Source of the DNA: Advenella kashmirensis WT001 | Lineage (GTDB): Bacteria > Pseudomonadota > Gammaproteobacteria > Burkholderiales > Burkholderiaceae_B | Assembly (NCBI RefSeq): GCF_000219915.2 | Contig: NC_017964.1 | Span: forward strand, 1-64,000 | DNA length: 64,000 bases | Direction: 5' to 3' | Shown: piece after piece, positions 3,190 to 41,369 of the stretch | How the letters are laid out: the number at the start of each line of letters is the position of its first letter | Numbering within the stretch: position 1 is the stretch's first letter | Notes under the pieces: model-generated | Databases searched by the model: none | What the model was told of the DNA's origin: nothing | The model's input: the letters and a program-made list of their open reading frames with translations, nothing else | Position numbers and translations under genes: made by a program

Positions 3190-5708
<2,519 letters not shown>

Positions 5709-5719
5709 GTGTTGTCGAG

Positions 5720-5779
5720 TCTCACAATTAGTGAAATCGTCTCACAATTGATGCAATTGGAATCTCACAATTAGTGAGA
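5720..5779 (+). repeat. Left-end array of three 17-bp sites
   Basis: Three direct copies of TCTCACAATT followed by AGTGAAA, GATGCAA and AGTGAGA start at 5720, 5740 and 5763, that is 20 and 23 bp apart. The same 20/23 spacing recurs in the relic at 7855-7914. They look like binding sites for a transposase or a similar multimeric protein. Confidence 0.75.
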
Positions 5780-5801
5780 ATATTCGGACACTAGAGCATT
5801 T

Positions 5802-5850
5802 AATAAAACAATAGGCAAATATCTTAGAAATATTTGCCTATTGTTTTATT
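5802..5850. terminator. Perfect 21-bp stem-loop, bidirectional terminator
   Basis: Left arm 5802-5822 and right arm 5830-5850 are exact reverse complements around a 7-nt loop. The arms end in AATAAAA/TTTTATT, so both strands have a U-rich 3' side. It lies downstream of gyrB (+) and of the DMT exporter gene (-), separating the cassette operon from gyrB transcription. Confidence 0.75.
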
Positions 5851-6051
5851 ATCTTTAACGTTTGCGAGTTTATTTGAGGCGAAAACGGTCAGGTGGTTGA
5901 CTCACGTGCTTATCGATATAAGCCGTATCGTAATTTGAGTAGCGACTTTACGTTGGATTATGCCCACATTTTTTTCATCAATGTAGTCATATGTACGACT
6001 TCTTAGATTTTTGTTCCGTAGGCGCTTCGCAGTTACGGCATTTAGGTATTG

Positions 6052-6972
6052 TCAAGTGGCAAAGGTCTTAGTAGTTTTTATAGGTAATGTAATTACGAAT
6101 AAACAGCCGATAACTAAAATTACCCCTATCCATCCCATAACAGCCAGACGTTCACCAACAATGAATACCGCTAGCATTGCTGCCACCGCAGGCTCTATCA
6201 AGGTTATTGTGGTCGCGGTACTGGCAGGTATGCGGGCTAAGCCGTACCCGAAACATACATATCCGATGAACATAGGCACTGTTGCCATATAGGCACCGAC
6301 AGCAAAATTCTCGACGGATTCCAAAAGTGGCGCCCCTGTTATCAGTAATACTGGCATAAGCAAAATACCGCCAATACCAAATGTTGAACCCATGGCAGCT
6401 TGTGATGAAATCCCAGTTTGCATCATACGCCACGCGGTCCATGAGTAAAGAGCATAAGTAAATCCTGCAACCAGGCCGAGCAAAACGCCTAGTATTCCTA
6501 AAGATGAAGGGTCTACTTCACCATGCCCCTTTGCCTTCGCGAAGCAAATAAGTAACATCCCAGCCAAACCCAACGCAGCCCCAGATATCCATCGTTTAGA
6601 TAGACGTAAACCATCCATACGGTTTTCAATGAGGGCGGATAAAAGAGGGGCAGAACCAATTGTGATTACCGTTCCTATCGTTACACCAGCAAACCGCATC
6701 GAAGCGTAGAAGGCGAGTGGGTATATCGCAACTGCTAGCGCACCGAAAATCAAAAGCCGCCATTGTTCAAGCAACCGTGCACGACTTTTTTCTATTGCGC
6801 GATAGGCGATGGCCGCTTGCAGCAACCCTCCAATACCCATTGCAACAGAGCCTATCGCAGCAGGACTCACATTTGGTGCAAACGATGCTGCCGTTCCCGT
6901 TGTTCCCCACAGGAAAGCAGCAATCAAAACACCCACTATGCCCAAGGCACTATTGTTAGCATGAAAACTCAT
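6052..6972 (-). CDS. EamA/DMT-superfamily membrane exporter
   Basis: A 306-residue inner-membrane protein with about ten hydrophobic segments arranged as two EamA repeats. The first begins IVGVLIAAFLWGTTGTAASF and the second ILGVLLGLVAGFTYALYSWT, with the usual late IEPAVAAMLAVFIVGERL motif. Members of this drug/metabolite transporter superfamily export amino acids, metabolites or drugs; the substrate here cannot be read from sequence. Its start codon overlaps the stop of the upstream tetR gene by one base (TAATG), so the two are translationally coupled. It is cargo of the 5713-7840 element and has lower GC than the chromosome around it. Confidence 0.88.
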   Translation of the reverse strand: MSFHANNSALGIVGVLIAAFLWGTTGTAASFAPNVSPAAIGSVAMGIGGLLQAAIAYRAIEKSRARLLEQWRLLIFGALAVAIYPLAFYASMRFAGVTIGTVITIGSAPLLSALIENRMDGLRLSKRWISGAALGLAGMLLICFAKAKGHGEVDPSSLGILGVLLGLVAGFTYALYSWTAWRMMQTGISSQAAMGSTFGIGGILLMPVLLITGAPLLESVENFAVGAYMATVPMFIGYVCFGYGLARIPASTATTITLIEPAVAAMLAVFIVGERLAVMGWIGVILVIGCLFVITLPIKTTKTFAT

Positions 6973-7571
6973 TATGACTTCAACATCGTAATTGCTATTT
7001 GTATGGCTTGGGTTAAGCGCATACTGTTACCCTCAAGCCCAGCTCTAGAAATAGAGCCTTCAAGTAGAAACGAAAAATGTGTAGCCAACTGCGTGGCTTG
7101 CTCCGCATTTCCTTGGAAATAGACAATCAAATGCGATTTTAAAATCTCTTCAACCTGCTCTTTATGCCTCCGAACAGCCTCTCGCCCTGGAGCTCCCACA
7201 GGTAGCTCCGCAGCGGCATTTAACAAACCACATCCACGGAAACCTTTCTCATATGCGAACTCGGCATGATCTTGGTAAGCCAAAAAAACACTGATTATTT
7301 TGTCCTGAACCGTATCGGCCTTTATAAGGCGCAACTGATACAGCTCCAACCACTCCGCATGCCTAGCTTCAATGTAAGTTGCGATTAACTCAGCTTTCGA
7401 TGAAAAATTGTTGTAGAGACTCTTTTTGGCAACACCTGCTCTTTCTACAATATGATCGATGCCAGAAGCCGCGAGTCCATCGTTATAGAAAAGAATAGAA
7501 GCTGCTTCGAGCAATCGTGCCTTCGCGCTTCTCTGAGAATCTTTATCTTGAGTCATAGTAGGTGTTTGCAT
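6972..7571 (-). CDS. TetR-family regulator of the cassette exporter
   Basis: A 199-residue TetR protein. The N-terminal helix-turn-helix (about 15-62) reads AKARLLEAASILFYNDG, then GIDHIVERAGVAKKSLYNNF, typical of the family; the remainder is a ligand-binding domain with a CGLLNAAAE segment. It is the first gene of a two-gene operon with the DMT exporter. A TAGTAT-N2-ATACTA inverted repeat (7584-7597) lies 12 bp upstream of the start and is the likely operator for autoregulation and control of the exporter. No clear ribosome-binding site is visible; a second ATG is at 7556. Confidence 0.9.
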   Translation of the reverse strand: MQTPTMTQDKDSQRSAKARLLEAASILFYNDGLAASGIDHIVERAGVAKKSLYNNFSSKAELIATYIEARHAEWLELYQLRLIKADTVQDKIISVFLAYQDHAEFAYEKGFRGCGLLNAAAELPVGAPGREAVRRHKEQVEEILKSHLIVYFQGNAEQATQLATHFSFLLEGSISRAGLEGNSMRLTQAIQIAITMLKS

Positions 7572-7583
7572 TAGTAGTTAGAC

Positions 7584-7597
7584 TAGTATACATACTA
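7584..7597. promoter_or_regulatory. Probable TetR operator
   Basis: TAGTAT-AC-ATACTA is a perfect inverted repeat of 6-bp arms just upstream of the tetR start, where an autoregulating repressor would bind. Confidence 0.55.
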
Positions 7598-7709
7598 ATG
7601 CGGCTTTTGAATATCAATTTTAATATTCCATAGAGAATTGGGATATTTCAATGCATTAAATATAGACCCAGAGCATACAAAAAGTGATGTCTTTTTGGTT
7701 CTAAAATAT

Positions 7710-7833
7710 TTGCATTATTTGTGAGACCAACTCCGGAAATTTTCATTAATTATGAGATTTTGAAAAGTGCCTGTCTCACAATTAATGAAAAAAGCCTTTA
7801 AAATCAAGCAAACTATTTTCACCAATTGTGAGA
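7710..7833. repeat. Right-end array of four 17-bp sites
   Basis: Copies related to TCTCACAATTAATGAAA occur at 7817-7833, 7741-7757 and 7710-7726 on the minus strand and at 7774-7790 on the plus strand. The outermost is part of the right terminal inverted repeat. The array differs in spacing and in one orientation from the left end, so the two ends are asymmetric, as in Tn7-like elements. Confidence 0.7.
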
Positions 7834-7840
7834 CTCGACA

Positions 7841-7848
7841 GTAGGTGT
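7841..7848 (+). repeat. Right copy of 8-bp target site duplication
   Basis: GTAGGTGT, identical to 5705-5712, begins immediately after the terminal CTCGACA of the element. Its last base also begins the TGT of the second element's end. Confidence 0.8.
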
Positions 7849-7914
7849 GTAGGTTCTCATAATTAGCGAAAAATTCTCACAATTAATGAAAATCGATTCT
7901 CATAATTAGTGAAA
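7848..7914 (+). mobile_element. Solo left end of a second, related element
   Basis: TGTAGGT is followed by TCTCATAATTAGCGAAA (7855-7871), TCTCACAATTAATGAAA (7875-7891) and TCTCATAATTAGTGAAA (7898-7914). The three sites are spaced 20 and 23 bp apart, exactly as in the left end at 5713-5779, and the first follows the TGT tip by the same distance. The sequence has diverged by several bases, so it is a different copy. No right end is seen before the terminator at 7942. It is best read as a relic left by an earlier insertion at the same place. Confidence 0.65.
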
Positions 7915-7941
7915 AAAATTTGTAGCGATACAGATTGCCAA

Positions 7942-7974
7942 ACAGGCTCCGAAGTTTTATCGGAGCCTGTTTTT
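7942..7974 (+). terminator. Rho-independent terminator, original gyrB terminator
   Basis: ACAGGCTCCGA (7942-7952) pairs with TCGGAGCCTGT (7960-7970) around a 7-nt loop, and the run ends in five Ts. Before the mobile insertions this would have sat about 100 bp or less past the gyrB stop. Confidence 0.85.
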
Positions 7975-8140: not shown

Positions 8141-11100
8141 TTATCCTTTATCGCATGTTGGATCATTGGCAAAGGTTGATGCGCCATGTTGGACCAGCTT
8201 GCGTCCGGACAGTTTACGCAAGGCGACGTAGAACACGGGGGTCAGAAACAGGCCGAACAACGTGACACCCAACATGCCGGCGAACACCGTGACGCCAGTC
8301 GCTGCGCGAATTTCTGCGCCGGCACCGTGGGAGAACAGCAATGGAACGGTGCCAGCGATGAAGGCAATGGAGGTCATGACTATCGGACGCAGCCGCAGGT
8401 GGCAGGCCTCCAGCGCCGCCTCGATGATACCTCTGCCCTGCATTTCCAGCTCACGAGCAAACTCAACGATCAGGATCGCATTCTTGCATGCCAGGCCTAT
8501 CAGCACAACCAGGCCGACCTGTACGAATACATTGTTGTCGCCACCGGTCAGCCACACGCCGAACAGCGCGGACAACAGACACATTGGCACGATCAGGATC
8601 ACGGCCAGCGGTAGCGTCCAACTCTCGTATAACGCGGCAAGCACCAGGAACACCAGCAGCACGGCGACCGGGAATACCACTAATGCCGCCTTGCCTTGCG
8701 TGGCCTGTTGGTAGCTAAGATCCGTCCATTCGATTTGCATGCCAGGCGGCAGCACCTTTTGCGCCAATTCGGCGATTTTGCCCATCACCTCATTCGAAGA
8801 CAACACGCGCGGATCAGCGCCACCGGCCAGGTCGGCGGCCGGATAGCCATTGAAGCGCAGCACCGGATCGGGTCCGAAGGTCTGTTTGATCTTCACCACG
8901 CTACCAATCGGCACCATCTCGCCGCGGTCATTGCGGGTGCGCAGATTGGCGATATCTTCAATATCGTCGCGGAACTCGGCGTCAGCCTGTGCGATTACCT
9001 GCCAGGTGCGGCCGAACTGGTTGAAATCATTGACGTAGGCCGACCCGAGATAGGTCTGTAAGGTGTCGAATACGCTGGTCAATGGCACACCCTGCGCCTT
9101 GGCCTTGACGCGATCCACTTCAGCATCAAACTGTGGCACGTTGGCCCGATAGCTGCTAGCCGGATAGGTCATGCCAGGCGTCTGCGAAATCGCGCCTTGC
9201 AGCGCCCCCATGACGTTTTGCAGGGCGCCGTATCCCATGCCTGCGCGGTCTTCAACGTACAAGGAATAGCCTGCGCCATTGCCAAGCCCCAGGATCGGCG
9301 GTGGCAAGATTGAGAACGTGACGCCTTCCTGCAATGCAGAAATCTTCTGGTTGATTTCAGCATTGATTTGCGCGGCACTGCGTTTGCGTTCAGAAAACGG
9401 CTTCAGGACAGGGAAAGTCGCTCCCGTATTCGGTGAATTCGTGTTCTGCAATGGGTTCAAGCCCGGAAATGTCACCGTATGCGCCACGCCCTCTGTGTTC
9501 ATGGCGATGTCGACAACCTTTCTGAGCAGCGCGTCGGTGCGTTCGAGCGATGCGCCTGCTGGCAGGATGACACCGGTGACAAGATAGCCTTTGTCCTGGT
9601 CGGGTACGAAGCCGCCTGGTACCGCCTTGAACATCACGCCGGTACCGAGCAACAACAACGCATACACCAGGAATACCGCGCCGCGCCTGCCCAGCACGCG
9701 AGATACAGCGCCTGATATTGAGCAGCACTCTTTTGGAAGAACCGGTTGAACGGACGAAATAGCCAGCCGAACAAGCGGTCGATCACGCGCGACGGGGCAT
9801 CTTTTGGGGCATCGTGCGGCTTGAGCAACAGCGCAGCCAGGGCAGGAGACAGGGTCAGGGAGTTGACCGCCGAGATCAACGTGGAGATGGCGATGGTGGT
9901 GGCGAACTGCTTGTAGAACTCGCCGGTCACCCCCGAGAGGAACGCCATGGGCACGAATACCGCGCACAGCACCAGTGCAATGGCGACGATCGGACCGGAA
10001 ACCTCCGTCATCGCCTGATGCGCGGCGGCCATCGGGGTCAGCCCTTGCTCTATGTTGCGCTCGACGTTCTCGACCACGACGATGGCGTCGTCGACCACGA
10101 TGCCGATCGCGAGCACCAGTCCGAACAGGCTCAGGGTGTTGATCGAGAAGCCCAGCAGGTACAGCCCCGCGAAGGTGCCAACGACCGACACCGGCACCGC
10201 AACCAACGGGATGATCGAGGCGCGCCAGGTCTGCAGGAACAGGATGACCACCAACACGACCAGCAGTACTGCCTCCAGCAGCGTGCTGACGACTGCCTTG
10301 ATCGAGTCGCGCACAAAGATGGTGGTGTCATACACCGACTCATAGCTGACGCCGGGTGGGAATCCCTTCTGGATCTCATCCATCGTGGTAATCACCTGGT
10401 TTCGGATGTCCAGCACATTGGCGCCGGGTGTCTGGAATATTGGCAACGCCACGGTGTTCTTGCCGTCCAATTGTGCGCGCAAGCTATAGTCGTTTGCGCC
10501 AAGCTCCAGACGAGCCACATCGCGCAGGCGCACAATCTGGCCGTCGCGACCGCTCTTGAGCACGATATCGCCGAATTCCTCGATGGTGCTCAATCGTCCC
10601 TTCGCATTAATCAAGCTCAGAAATTGACTATTGGGCATCGGTTCGGCGCCAATCTGGCCAGCTGACACTTGCACGTTCTGCTCGCGCATTGCCGTGACGA
10701 CGTCGCTTGCGGTCAGGTTGCGGGCGGCAATCTTTCCAGGATCGAGCCAGGCTCGCATCGCGTAGTCGCCGCCGCCAAACACCCCGACGTCGCCGACACC
10801 GGGAATCCGTGCAAGCGTGTCCTTGACATGCAAGCGCGCGTAATTGCGTAGATACTGCGAATCGTAGCGGTCATCCGGCGAGACGAGATTAACAACCATC
10901 AGGAATGTCGGTGACTGCTTTTGTACGGTCACGCCCTGGCGGCGCACGTCTTCGGGCAGACGCGCTTGCGCCTGGGCAACGCGGTTTTGCACACGCACGG
11001 TGGCATCGTCGGCATTAGTGCCAGGCGAAACGTCACAGTCATCTGCAGCACGCCATCAGAGCCGGCGACCGACTTCGAGTACATCATGCCTTCCACGCCG

Positions 11101-11315
11101 TTGATCGCTTCTTCCAGGGGGGCGGACACGGTTTCGGCAATGACCTTGGGGTTGGCGCCCGGATACACGGTGCGCACCACCACTGACGGTGGCACGACGT
11201 TAGGGTATTCGTCAGCCGGCAGGATCGGGATCGTAATCAGGCCGGCGGCGAAAATCACGATAGACAGGACCGCAGCGAAGATCGGGCGGTTGATGAAAAA
11301 CTTTGAAAAATCCAT
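8141..11315 (-). CDS. RND multidrug efflux pump, inner-membrane subunit (AcrB/MexB type), frameshifted
   Basis: A HAE1-family RND transporter of about 1058 residues after repair. The N-terminus MDFSKFFINRPIFAAVLSI is typical, followed by a periplasmic domain, then transmembrane blocks including VLAIGIVVDDAIVVVENVER, the conserved TM4 Asp-pair segment that carries the proton relay. The C-terminal half has VFVQVGLVVLIGLACKNAILIVEFA and a matching final bundle. Two one-base deletions break the frame, near 11030 (after VTFR) and near 9712 (after AAQYQ). It follows the fusion-protein gene by 13 bp. No outer-membrane channel gene is present, so the pump probably uses a channel encoded elsewhere. 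Confidence 0.92.
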
Positions 11316-31162: not shown

Positions 31163-31506
31163 GCGTACGAGCCGCCTGTCAGGCCCGCGGGATGGGCTGC
31201 AGTATGTAACAGCCATCGCGTTTTGCTGGGCGGACCGTCTCAGGTATGCTCATTGCCCTCGGTTCTGGTATCTACGTATTCTGCGCAAGATGGGCTAAGG
31301 ACAGTGTCCCGGCCAGTGTGTGTCTGCAGCAGTGGCGACAGCCCATTTTCGACCCTCTGCTGCTACAATTGCTCCTTCCTTTCGCCGTTTCCGCCGTCTT
31401 GCCATCAGGCAAGCTGCCCGTCCGGCTCATCGCCCCGTCATCCTTGATCTCATCCCGGTCAGTCTCGGCTGGGGTTTTTGTTCCCGAAAATGAAGACCTA
31501 CCCTCA

Positions 31507-33179
31507 ATGATTATTCTCAAGAACGTGACCTTGCGTCGCGGCAGCAAAGTATTGCTCGACAAAACCTCCGTCACACTCAATCCCGGGGAAAAGGTGGGTC
31601 TGGTCGGCCGCAACGGCGCGGGCAAGTCTTCATTATTCGCGGTGCTCAATGGCACGCTGCACGAGGATGGCGGCGAGTTTTCCATCCCATCGCAGTGGCG
31701 TATGTCACAAGTGGCGCAGGACATGCCGGAAACCGAGCAGAGCGCAACGGACTTTGTGGTGGAGGGTGACACGATCCTGCTAGCCGCGCAAAACGAAGTT
31801 ACGGCATCCGAGGCCAGTGATGACGGCATGCGCATGGCGCACGCGTATATGGCCTTGCACGACGCCGGCGCTCACGATGCCGCTGCCCGTGCGCAGGCCC
31901 TTATTCTGGGACTGGGCTTTAGCGTGGCTGAACTTGACCGACCGGTAAACAGCTTTTCGGGTGGCTGGCGCATGCGCCTGCAGCTGGCTCGCGCACTTAT
32001 GTGCCCGTCGGACCTGCTGTTGCTTGATGAACCGACCAATCACCTGGATCTGGACGCCTGGTGTGGCTGGAAGCGTGGCTCAAAAACTATGCAGGCACCA
32101 TGGTTGTAATCAGCCATGACCGCGAGTTTCTGGATGCGATCACCAACGTGACGCTGCATATCGACAATGGCACACTGGTGCGCTACGGTGGCAATTACAG
32201 CAAGTTTGAAGACATGCGTGCCGAACAAATGTTGCTGCAACAGGCAGCGCACGCCAAGCAACAGGAAAAGGTTGCGCATCTGCAAAAATTCATTGACCGC
32301 TTCAAGGCAAAAGCCAGCAAAGCCAAGCAGGCGCAAAGCCGCGTCAAGGCACTTGAGCGCATGGAAAAAATTGCACCTGTATTGGCTGACGCCGAGTTTC
32401 AGTTCGAGTTTAAAGAACCGCTTAGCATGCCCAACCCCATGCTGGCAATGACCGATGGCAGCTTTGGCTACCCTGTGCCGGAAGACGCACCGGCCGGTGC
32501 AGCGCCTACGGTCATCGTGCAGAATGTTAATCGTACTGTTCTGGCCGGGCAGCGTATCGGCATTCTTGGCGCCAATGGACAAGGCAAGTCTACGCTGGTT
32601 AAAACCATAGCCGGTGCCTTGGCGCCGATCGCCGGCGAAATCATCCCGGGCAAAGGCCTGAATATCGGCTATTTTTCGCAGCAGGAACTGGATGTCCTGC
32701 GACCGGCCGAGACCCCGCTTGAACACATGATACGCCTGGTGCGCGACACGCCGGCCAGCATGCGCCCCAGCGCCATGGATTGTCGTGAACAGGGGCTGCG
32801 CAATTTTCTGGGCACCTTTAATTTTAGTGGTGATATGGTCAAGCAGTCTGTCGGCAGCATGAGCGGCGGGGAGAAAGCGCGCCTGGTGTTGTGCATGATC
32901 GTCTGGCAGCGTCCCAATTTTCTGCTGCTGGATGAACCGACCAACCACCTGGATCTGGCCACACGCGAAGCCCTGAGCGTCGCGCTGAACGAATTCGAAG
33001 GTTCGGCGATGCTGGTCAGCCACGACCGCGCGTTGTTGCGTTCGGTCTGCGATGAATTCTGGCTGGTGTCGCGCGGCGGCATGACAGATTTTGACGGCGA
33101 CCTGGACGATTACCAGGTATATCTACTGGAAGAGGCCAAGCGTCAGCGGGAAGCGGCGAGCGGCAGAAAGGTTGCTTGA
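31507..33179 (+). CDS. ABC-F family ATPase, frameshifted
   Basis: About 557 residues after repair. Two nucleotide-binding domains without membrane segments define ABC-F proteins, which act on ribosomes. Domain 1 has VGLVGRNGAGKSSLF (Walker A), FSGGWRMRLQLARAL (signature) and LLLLDEPTNHLDLDA. A charged linker (AKQQEKVAHLQKFIDRFKAKASKAKQAQSRVKALERM) separates it from domain 2 with IGILGANGQGKSTL, SMSGGEKARLVL and LLLDEPTNHLDL. The frame breaks near 32058, where one G is missing before TGGTGTGG. ATG 31507 starts at MIILKNVTLRRG; the open frame further upstream has no coding sign. YheS-like, but the exact subfamily is uncertain. Confidence 0.92.
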
Positions 33180-41120: not shown

Positions 41121-41369
41121 GCCACATCATCAGTATAAGTGGCGTTCACACCTAGATTGCGTCTTTATTTCGTGTCGAAATTTTGGTGCTAAGCCCTATT
41201 GCGGCGACGCCAAAATGCGCAATAGTGGTACGGGACAGGAGAGATACACTTCAGATTCGATTGCTAAATAGATTGCTTGCGCGCCAACACATCGCTTGAT
41301 TAAAAGTTAAACTAACCAGAACTGTACCGCACCAAGCCAGCCAATCTCATTCATTGTGAAACACAGCAC

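Follow-up and report, generated by a model that had tools for sequence, protein, structure and literature searches.

A putative cargo-only derivative of a Tn7-like family behind the gyrB gene of Advenella kashmirensis WT001

The first 64,000 nucleotides of contig NC_017964.1 of Advenella kashmirensis WT001, here called the window, carry directly behind the gyrB gene a unit of 2128 bp (5713-7840) that has transposon-like ends and no transposase gene. The question raised by this locus is to which family such a unit belongs, and how it came to lie at the end of an essential gene. Our analysis indicates that it very probably derives from a Tn7-like family with the gyrB 3' end as its homing site and now carries cargo only; in this family, a large TniQ protein (TniQ2) is proposed to select the target and a hairpin carried by the transposon end is proposed to take over termination of gyrB.

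The unit and its ends

Positions 4644-5708 on the plus strand hold the 3' part of gyrB, which is proposed as the attachment gene and has its stop codon TAG at 5706-5708. The product of this part matches residues 438-816 of GyrB from Advenella sp. FME57 (genome G006) at 96% identity. The first base of the unit lies 4 nt past this stop. The unit opens with TGTCGAGTCTCACAATTAGTGAAA and closes with an inverted copy of it, and the two inverted termini (5713-5736 and 7817-7840) are identical in 23 of 24 nucleotides. The gyrB-proximal end (5713-5784, plus strand) consists of TGTCGAG followed by three direct copies of the 17-bp site TCTCAYAATTARYGAAA at 5720-5736, 5740-5756 and 5763-5779, all on the plus strand. 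The distal end (7702-7840, plus strand) holds four sites, at 7710-7726 (minus), 7741-7757 (minus), 7774-7790 (plus) and 7817-7833 (minus), and finishes with CTCGACA. A perfect 8-bp direct repeat, GTAGGTGT, flanks the unit on both sides (5705-5712, overlapping the gyrB stop, and 7841-7848, both read on the plus strand).

The site is concentrated at this locus. With up to three mismatches it was matched 11 times in the window, against 0.68 (sd 0.79) per shuffle in 100 shuffles with a maximum of 3; ten of these matches fall at 5720-7914 and the eleventh, with three mismatches, at 41345. In the whole genome all eight matches with no or one mismatch are at the gyrB-adjacent locus, while the six matches with two mismatches are divided into two at the locus and four isolated elsewhere, compared with two for a control pattern.

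Just inside the left end there is a terminator-like hairpin with 22-bp arms (5801-5851, plus strand), followed by what is left of an AraC-type gene, a broken 3' end (5870-5993, minus strand). The cargo consists of an EamA-type exporter gene of the drug/metabolite transporter (DMT) family (6052-6972, minus strand; PF00892, E 2.8e-33) and a gene for a TetR-family regulator (6972-7571, minus strand; TetR_N, PF00440, E 2e-11). The GC content of the unit is 0.428 versus 0.534 for the window. No TnsA, TnsB, TnsC or TniQ gene was found between the ends, and searches of the window's genome returned no TniQ match and no TnsB match. It suggests that, as far as these searches reach, the unit is immobile without a helper. 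The predicted arrays of TnsB sites, three and four in number within inverted termini starting with TGT, are what would be expected of a Tn7-like element. A preliminary description of this DNA, made from the letters alone, had reported the inverted terminal repeat, the 8-bp repeat that includes the gyrB stop, the asymmetric arrays with one inverted site, the tetR-exporter pair of lower GC content, the insertion at the end of an essential gene and the Tn7-type multi-site ends lacking a transposase, and all of these are borne out here. It had overlooked the broken AraC tail.

Among the plasmid records listed (20 of 21), homologues of the tetR-exporter pair share parts of the gene region at ~63-74% identity and not the ends. 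A homologue of the pair in genome G007 (68%) is chromosomal (480 kb, away from gyrB).

Relatives with transposition genes at the same place

The same preliminary description had proposed looking for larger copies that carry a transposase and for strains with an empty gyrB junction. Larger copies were found, and so was one candidate for an empty junction. Among ten genomes of the genus, seven have end arrays directly past the gyrB stop, as does Pollutimonas subterranea (G236); the gyrB end of one genus genome (G005) was not retrieved, and two (G004 and G008) have no array after the stop. G008 looks like an empty site, in which gyrB is followed by a hairpin of its own. A left-end-like pattern with at most two mismatches was detected in 24 of 268 genomes of the family, and the backward control gave none in the rows shown. 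Eleven of the 24 were placed at the gyrB stop, namely the seven of the genus, G236, G163, G241 and G165 (the last by its right end). A related-looking array also lies 16 nt past the gyrB stop in G056, which belongs to another family. Ends are stacked, with a right end, a few bases and then the next left end, in G001, G007, G009 and G236, and single relic ends occur in G003 and in the window.

Larger copies that carry transposition genes are present in G006, in Advenella incenata DSM 23814 (G001; Alcaligenaceae, Burkholderiales), which like G006 is of the same genus as the window's genome, and in G236. Behind gyrB and the left end, G006 encodes TnsA, TnsB, TnsC (TniB), a TniQ1 of 479 aa and a TniQ2 of 600 aa with an HTH_17 domain (Pfam). 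A. incenata has the order TnsA-TnsB-TnsC-TniQ1-TniQ2 as in G006, with identities to the G006 proteins of 45% for TnsB, 22% for TniQ1, which scores under the Pfam cut-off, and 37% for TniQ2. P. subterranea also has the five-gene set, with its left end 3 nt past the gyrB stop, and its TnsB has no Pfam match and is 54% identical to that of G006. In G009, tnsA and tnsB are kept and tnsC is interrupted after ~51 residues by a transposase gene (rve/rve_3/HTH_21) that we take to be of IS3 type. Since such ends adjoin TnsA-TnsB-TnsC-TniQ-TniQ genes at the same place in both Advenella and Pollutimonas, the unit of the window is best read as a transposase-less derivative. A tblastn search of plasmids with TnsB gave at least 30 relatives, those listed being at 27-34%.

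These genes also bear on a different assignment, that of an IS21-type element or a non-autonomous derivative of one. IS21 elements have multi-site ends, and some members make 8-bp duplications, so the end architecture and the 8-bp repeat of the unit are compatible with IS21 in principle. However, elements with such ends encode TnsA, TnsB, TnsC and TniQ, and the sole IstB_IS21 match in the window's genome (C1:1060-1365) lies, judged by eye, inside dnaA, istA not having been searched by its own family. On these two grounds we rejected an IS21 identity, which appears extremely improbable.

The Tn7-like reading agrees with what is known of Tn7 in several respects. Tn7 termini are TGT...ACA. Tn7 uses TnsABCD to enter attTn7 downstream of glmS with a 5-bp duplication (PMC2918618, PMC8649781), and its ends have three and four TnsB sites (PMC8649781); the relatives described here share the TnsA, TnsB, TnsC and TniQ/TnsD set, the three and four end sites, an apparent 5-bp duplication in the sister elements and the insertion in one orientation behind an essential gene. 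They differ from Tn7 in homing to gyrB, 2-16 nt past the stop, and in having two TniQ proteins in G006, G001 and G236, and the unit of the window differs further in its lack of tns genes and its 8-bp repeat. Tandem tniQ/tnsD genes were counted at 1,048 loci in one survey (PMC10293859). Among proteins of solved structure, those closest to TnsB (E 4e-79) and TnsC (E 4e-20) belong to the I-F3 CRISPR-associated transposons (CASTs), and the model of TniQ2 is weakly like their TniQ. In contrast to I-F3 CASTs, the elements target gyrB, and no cas family was detected when nine proteins of G006 and eight of G001 were scanned with Pfam.

The ends of the unit also point to its origin. Its left end is 96% identical (70/73) to the gyrB-side end of A. 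incenata and 76-83% identical to the other six compared, and it follows that the gyrB-side end of the unit comes from the A. incenata subfamily. The distal end is 82-91% identical to seven right ends, some of them partial, in G001, G007 and G009. Immediately behind the unit lies a second left end with three direct sites (7855, 7875 and 7898, all plus), at 7848-7918 on the plus strand, which the preliminary description had missed. It is 78% identical to the left end of the unit, and over 143-145 columns it shares 93-94% identity with the ends that face gyrB in G009 and G006 (end-profile E 9.7e-20, the end being itself one row of the profile), and it has its own terminator-like hairpin (7940-7972, plus strand). 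An end-profile search found no matching right end in the window. This older left end is read as the relic of an earlier element of the FME57/G009 subfamily.

We consider it fairly probable that the unit was moved in trans by a transposase of the A. incenata type rather than having lost its tns genes in place. The difference of subfamily would explain how it could insert next to intact TnsB sites despite target immunity. Insertion next to a resident Tn7-like element is known to give multiple left and right ends (PMC8649781); in the present case the stack combines two subfamilies, whose TnsB proteins are 45% identical, and one of its units carries cargo only. A somewhat less probable course is that a full element inserted at gyrB and then deleted its tns genes in place, keeping the ends and part of the cargo. 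The AraC remnant speaks for it. The remnant resembles the C-terminus of an AraC-family protein (HTH_AraC, HTH_18) of G007, which is encoded at full length (308 aa) by the first gene of the larger second element in that genome; the DNA match extends over 5742-5993 at 86%. The broken tail adjoins the left end in the window as the AraC gene does in G007. Decay in place is also seen in relatives, in the tnsC of G009 cut by the IS3-type transposase gene and in the lone relic ends of G003 and the window. On the other hand, both ends of the unit are near-intact (0-2 mismatches per site, termini 23/24) beside a broken AraC tail, the whole AraC gene of the larger G007 relative goes with a worse left end, and the flanking repeat of the unit is perfect.

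In the FME57 element (L073:13236-19345), for which no right end was located, TniQ2 is followed by an MmeI-type restriction-modification protein gene and a helicase-like gene, which are likely defence cargo. The sole listed open reading frame (ORF; at least 60 aa, overlaps removed) of a 1.15-kb element at gyrB of G007 (L052:1381-2532) encodes a Tsi6-family protein, presumably an immunity protein of a type VI secretion effector. In G009 (L046-L049), ~71 kb lie between the left end at gyrB and the right end, with many coenzyme A-transferase-like and substrate-binding-protein-like genes (by eye) as well as a pair of IS3-type transposase genes that look identical.

Homing to gyrB and its proposed selector

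A fixed attachment site used in one orientation was found both in the genus, in the seven of ten genomes together with P. subterranea, and in the order. A TnsB profile search of 399 genomes of the order (E 1e-60) gave relatives in 25, and with the family genomes G131 and G113 there were 27, in all of which gyrB was located. No related TnsB was on the gyrB contig in eight of the 27 (G342, G414, G542, G343, G450, G344, G454 and G605). In 14 of the 19 genomes with both on one contig, TnsB follows gyrB at a distance of 1.3-22.7 kb and on the same strand (G131, G113, G315, G633, G421, G598, G423, G381, G388, G537, G513, G496, G293 and G059); G293 has a second TnsB on another contig. As the site-pair score is weak for several of these (e.g. 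G633, G113 and G421), we relied on the motif TGTAGG/TGTCGG and on location. Thirteen of the 14 gyrB-sited genomes have this motif beginning no more than 30 nt from the gyrB stop, the exception being G381 with TGTTGG, compared with five of the 13 other genomes (G479, G414, G450, G342 and G482).

TniQ2 is the candidate for reading this site. TniQ was combined with HTH_17 in TniQ2 of G006, G001 and G236 and in all six further TniQ2-like proteins beside gyrB that were scanned (G381, G496, G388, G513, G131 and G113, the HTH_17 of the last scoring under the cut-off). In a tree of TniQ2-like proteins with 21 rows, of which G542 and G450 are unlabelled, gyrB-sited and other elements were split with two label changes, and 4 of 500 label shuffles were as low. 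The tree leaves out G421 (467 aa, below the length cut), G633 and genomes with no long enough or fetched TniQ. The sequence of TniQ2 matches TniQ of solved complexes over a short stretch. TniQ2 of this type is rare: a pattern scan of limited reach placed it at three loci in GTDB 220 representatives, and it was found in at least 15 proteins at E 1e-10 in a large protein set in which 7995 candidates sharing most words were scored, and in five of 268 family genomes, two of them distant. Because the analogous TnsD binds the glmS 3' end and directs insertion ~20 bp downstream (PMC2918618), TniQ2 most likely reads gyrB at the end of its coding sequence.

Insertion so close behind a gene would displace its terminator. 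Tn7 was reportedly located in the terminator of glmS by Gay et al. in 1986. Within 220 nt of the gyrB stop, that is, within the element, a hairpin with a T-run was present in 12 of the 14 gyrB-sited genomes, and it was also present with ten of the 13 left ends taken from the genus and from G236 (element 1 of G007, G003 and G002 fail). Both the array and the hairpin scores are crude. The stem sequences differ between lineages, and G009 has two copies of one stem with its two left ends at one locus. The hairpin thus travels with the end, and we infer that the hairpins of the elements would act as a replacement of the gyrB terminator.

Taken together, the following course is proposed. In complete members, TnsB would occupy the arrays of sites at either end, the element would be excised by TnsA together with TnsB, and TnsC would connect the complex to the target selector. 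The large TniQ2 with its helix-turn-helix domain would read the gyrB end and give insertion 2-16 nt past the stop, with the tnsA-side end facing gyrB, and the hairpin of this gyrB-side end would replace the terminator displaced by insertion. The unit in the window would have retained both ends and the tetR-exporter pair, between gyrB and the relic left end of the other subfamily.

Several observations weigh against this picture. In seven other genomes with the left-end pattern the pattern was not found at the stop (G028, G022, G160, G025, G167, G263 and G217), most of the seven stretches covered holding no gyrB; a further six pattern genomes were outside the comparison. G165 has the right end and not the left end adjoining gyrB, and G028 has a right end ~17 kb behind gyrB and no left end at gyrB; these two exceptions to the rule of site and orientation are probably due to decay. 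Five of the 19 order genomes (G486, G479, G337, G623 and G482) have their related TnsB at a great distance from gyrB, and G623 has two of them, both far. A single gyrB origin of TniQ2 was present in 0% of bootstrap trees, G496 standing among elements sited elsewhere. The fold model of TniQ2 is weak to moderate (predicted local distance difference test, pLDDT, 73; predicted template modelling score, pTM, 0.53), and it best matches TniQ of I-F3 CASTs at a template modelling score of only ~0.25, followed by partial matches to excisionase/MerR-type domains. Hairpins follow gyrB in nine of the 13 other genomes, several of them plainly host terminators without an array, and a second, cruder hairpin score was above the shuffles in only five of 14 (G131, G113, G421, G598 and G496). 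As control genomes also have a hairpin, it is the position behind the array that counts, and a hairpin alone proves nothing. The genome of the window has no helper of its own. The duplication of the unit is 8 bp rather than 5, the flanks of G002 are alike over about 8-9 nt and imperfect, and the 1.15-kb element of G007 has flanks that differ. The ends, their location, the machinery of the relatives, the stacking and the hairpins are read directly from sequence, and the roles of TniQ2 and of the hairpins and the movement in trans are the proposed parts of the picture.

The preliminary description had taken the 8-bp repeat to set the unit apart from Tn7 and had suggested that the family may be undescribed. 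The perfection of the repeat, and the similar flanks of G002, would fit a real target duplication of this lineage with a cutting geometry unlike that of Tn7. We regard this as unlikely, because three sister elements appear to have 5 bp: the A. incenata element, whose left end is the 96% identical one, has GTGTT on both flanks and P. subterranea has GATGT on both, the junctions lying on two contigs in each case with the pairing assumed, and G009 has a duplication of GGTGT with one additional base on the left. With these sisters, and with relatives that carry TnsA, TnsB, TnsC and TniQ, the 8 bp gives no ground for a new family. As all insertions are at the same few bases, stacking and recombination of similar right ends could mimic 8 bp from two 5-bp events.

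The gyrB site seems undescribed and widely used in the order. No gyrB attachment site turned up in the literature searched, which left supplements and most subscription papers outside, and the word 'gyrB' is absent from the main texts of PMC10293859, PMC8649781 and PMC11406308. In PMC12452197, gyrB serves as a marker. The gene parE is a relative of gyrB. A parE-targeting TniQ is described in I-F3 elements (PMC11406308). By a narrow balance we favour the wider view that the gyrB 3' end would be the ancestral main homing site of a Tn7-like branch of Burkholderiales, read by a large TniQ related to that of I-F3 CASTs, in which the transposon end restores termination and subfamilies blind to the immunity of each other stack and support satellites that lack a transposase, such as the unit.

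If the proposal is true, gyrB joins glmS, parE, comM and tRNA genes as a safe site for Tn7-type selectors, with broad use in Burkholderiales, and would provide a natural landing site next to a conserved gene that is essential. Large strain-specific islands behind gyrB would also be explained. Two ideas become testable, namely that transposon ends carry replacement terminators for a host gene and that satellites with cargo alone exploit transposases from other strains.

Neighbouring sequence in the window

The gyrB gene of the window (3214-5708) is divided between two ORFs that overlap (3214-4650 and 4644-5708), while G006 has a single frame of 816 aa. As gyrB is essential, the division probably reflects an error of sequencing or assembly. 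Downstream, an efflux pump gene of resistance-nodulation-division type (named by eye) extends over three overlapping minus-strand frames at 8141-11315, which looks like the result of indel errors. The same pump operon lies in G003 between the gyrB-side end and a decayed right end.

From gyrB to ~31.35 kb (8000-31350), the sequence is strongly variable among the genomes of the genus and forms an island behind gyrB, and the segment ~31354-33160 is common to G001, G003, G006, G007 and G009. Farther downstream, 41345-41368 resembles a decayed right end; it is conserved in G007 and G001, lies just upstream of an oxidoreductase-like gene (by eye), and may be a chance likeness or a very old right end.

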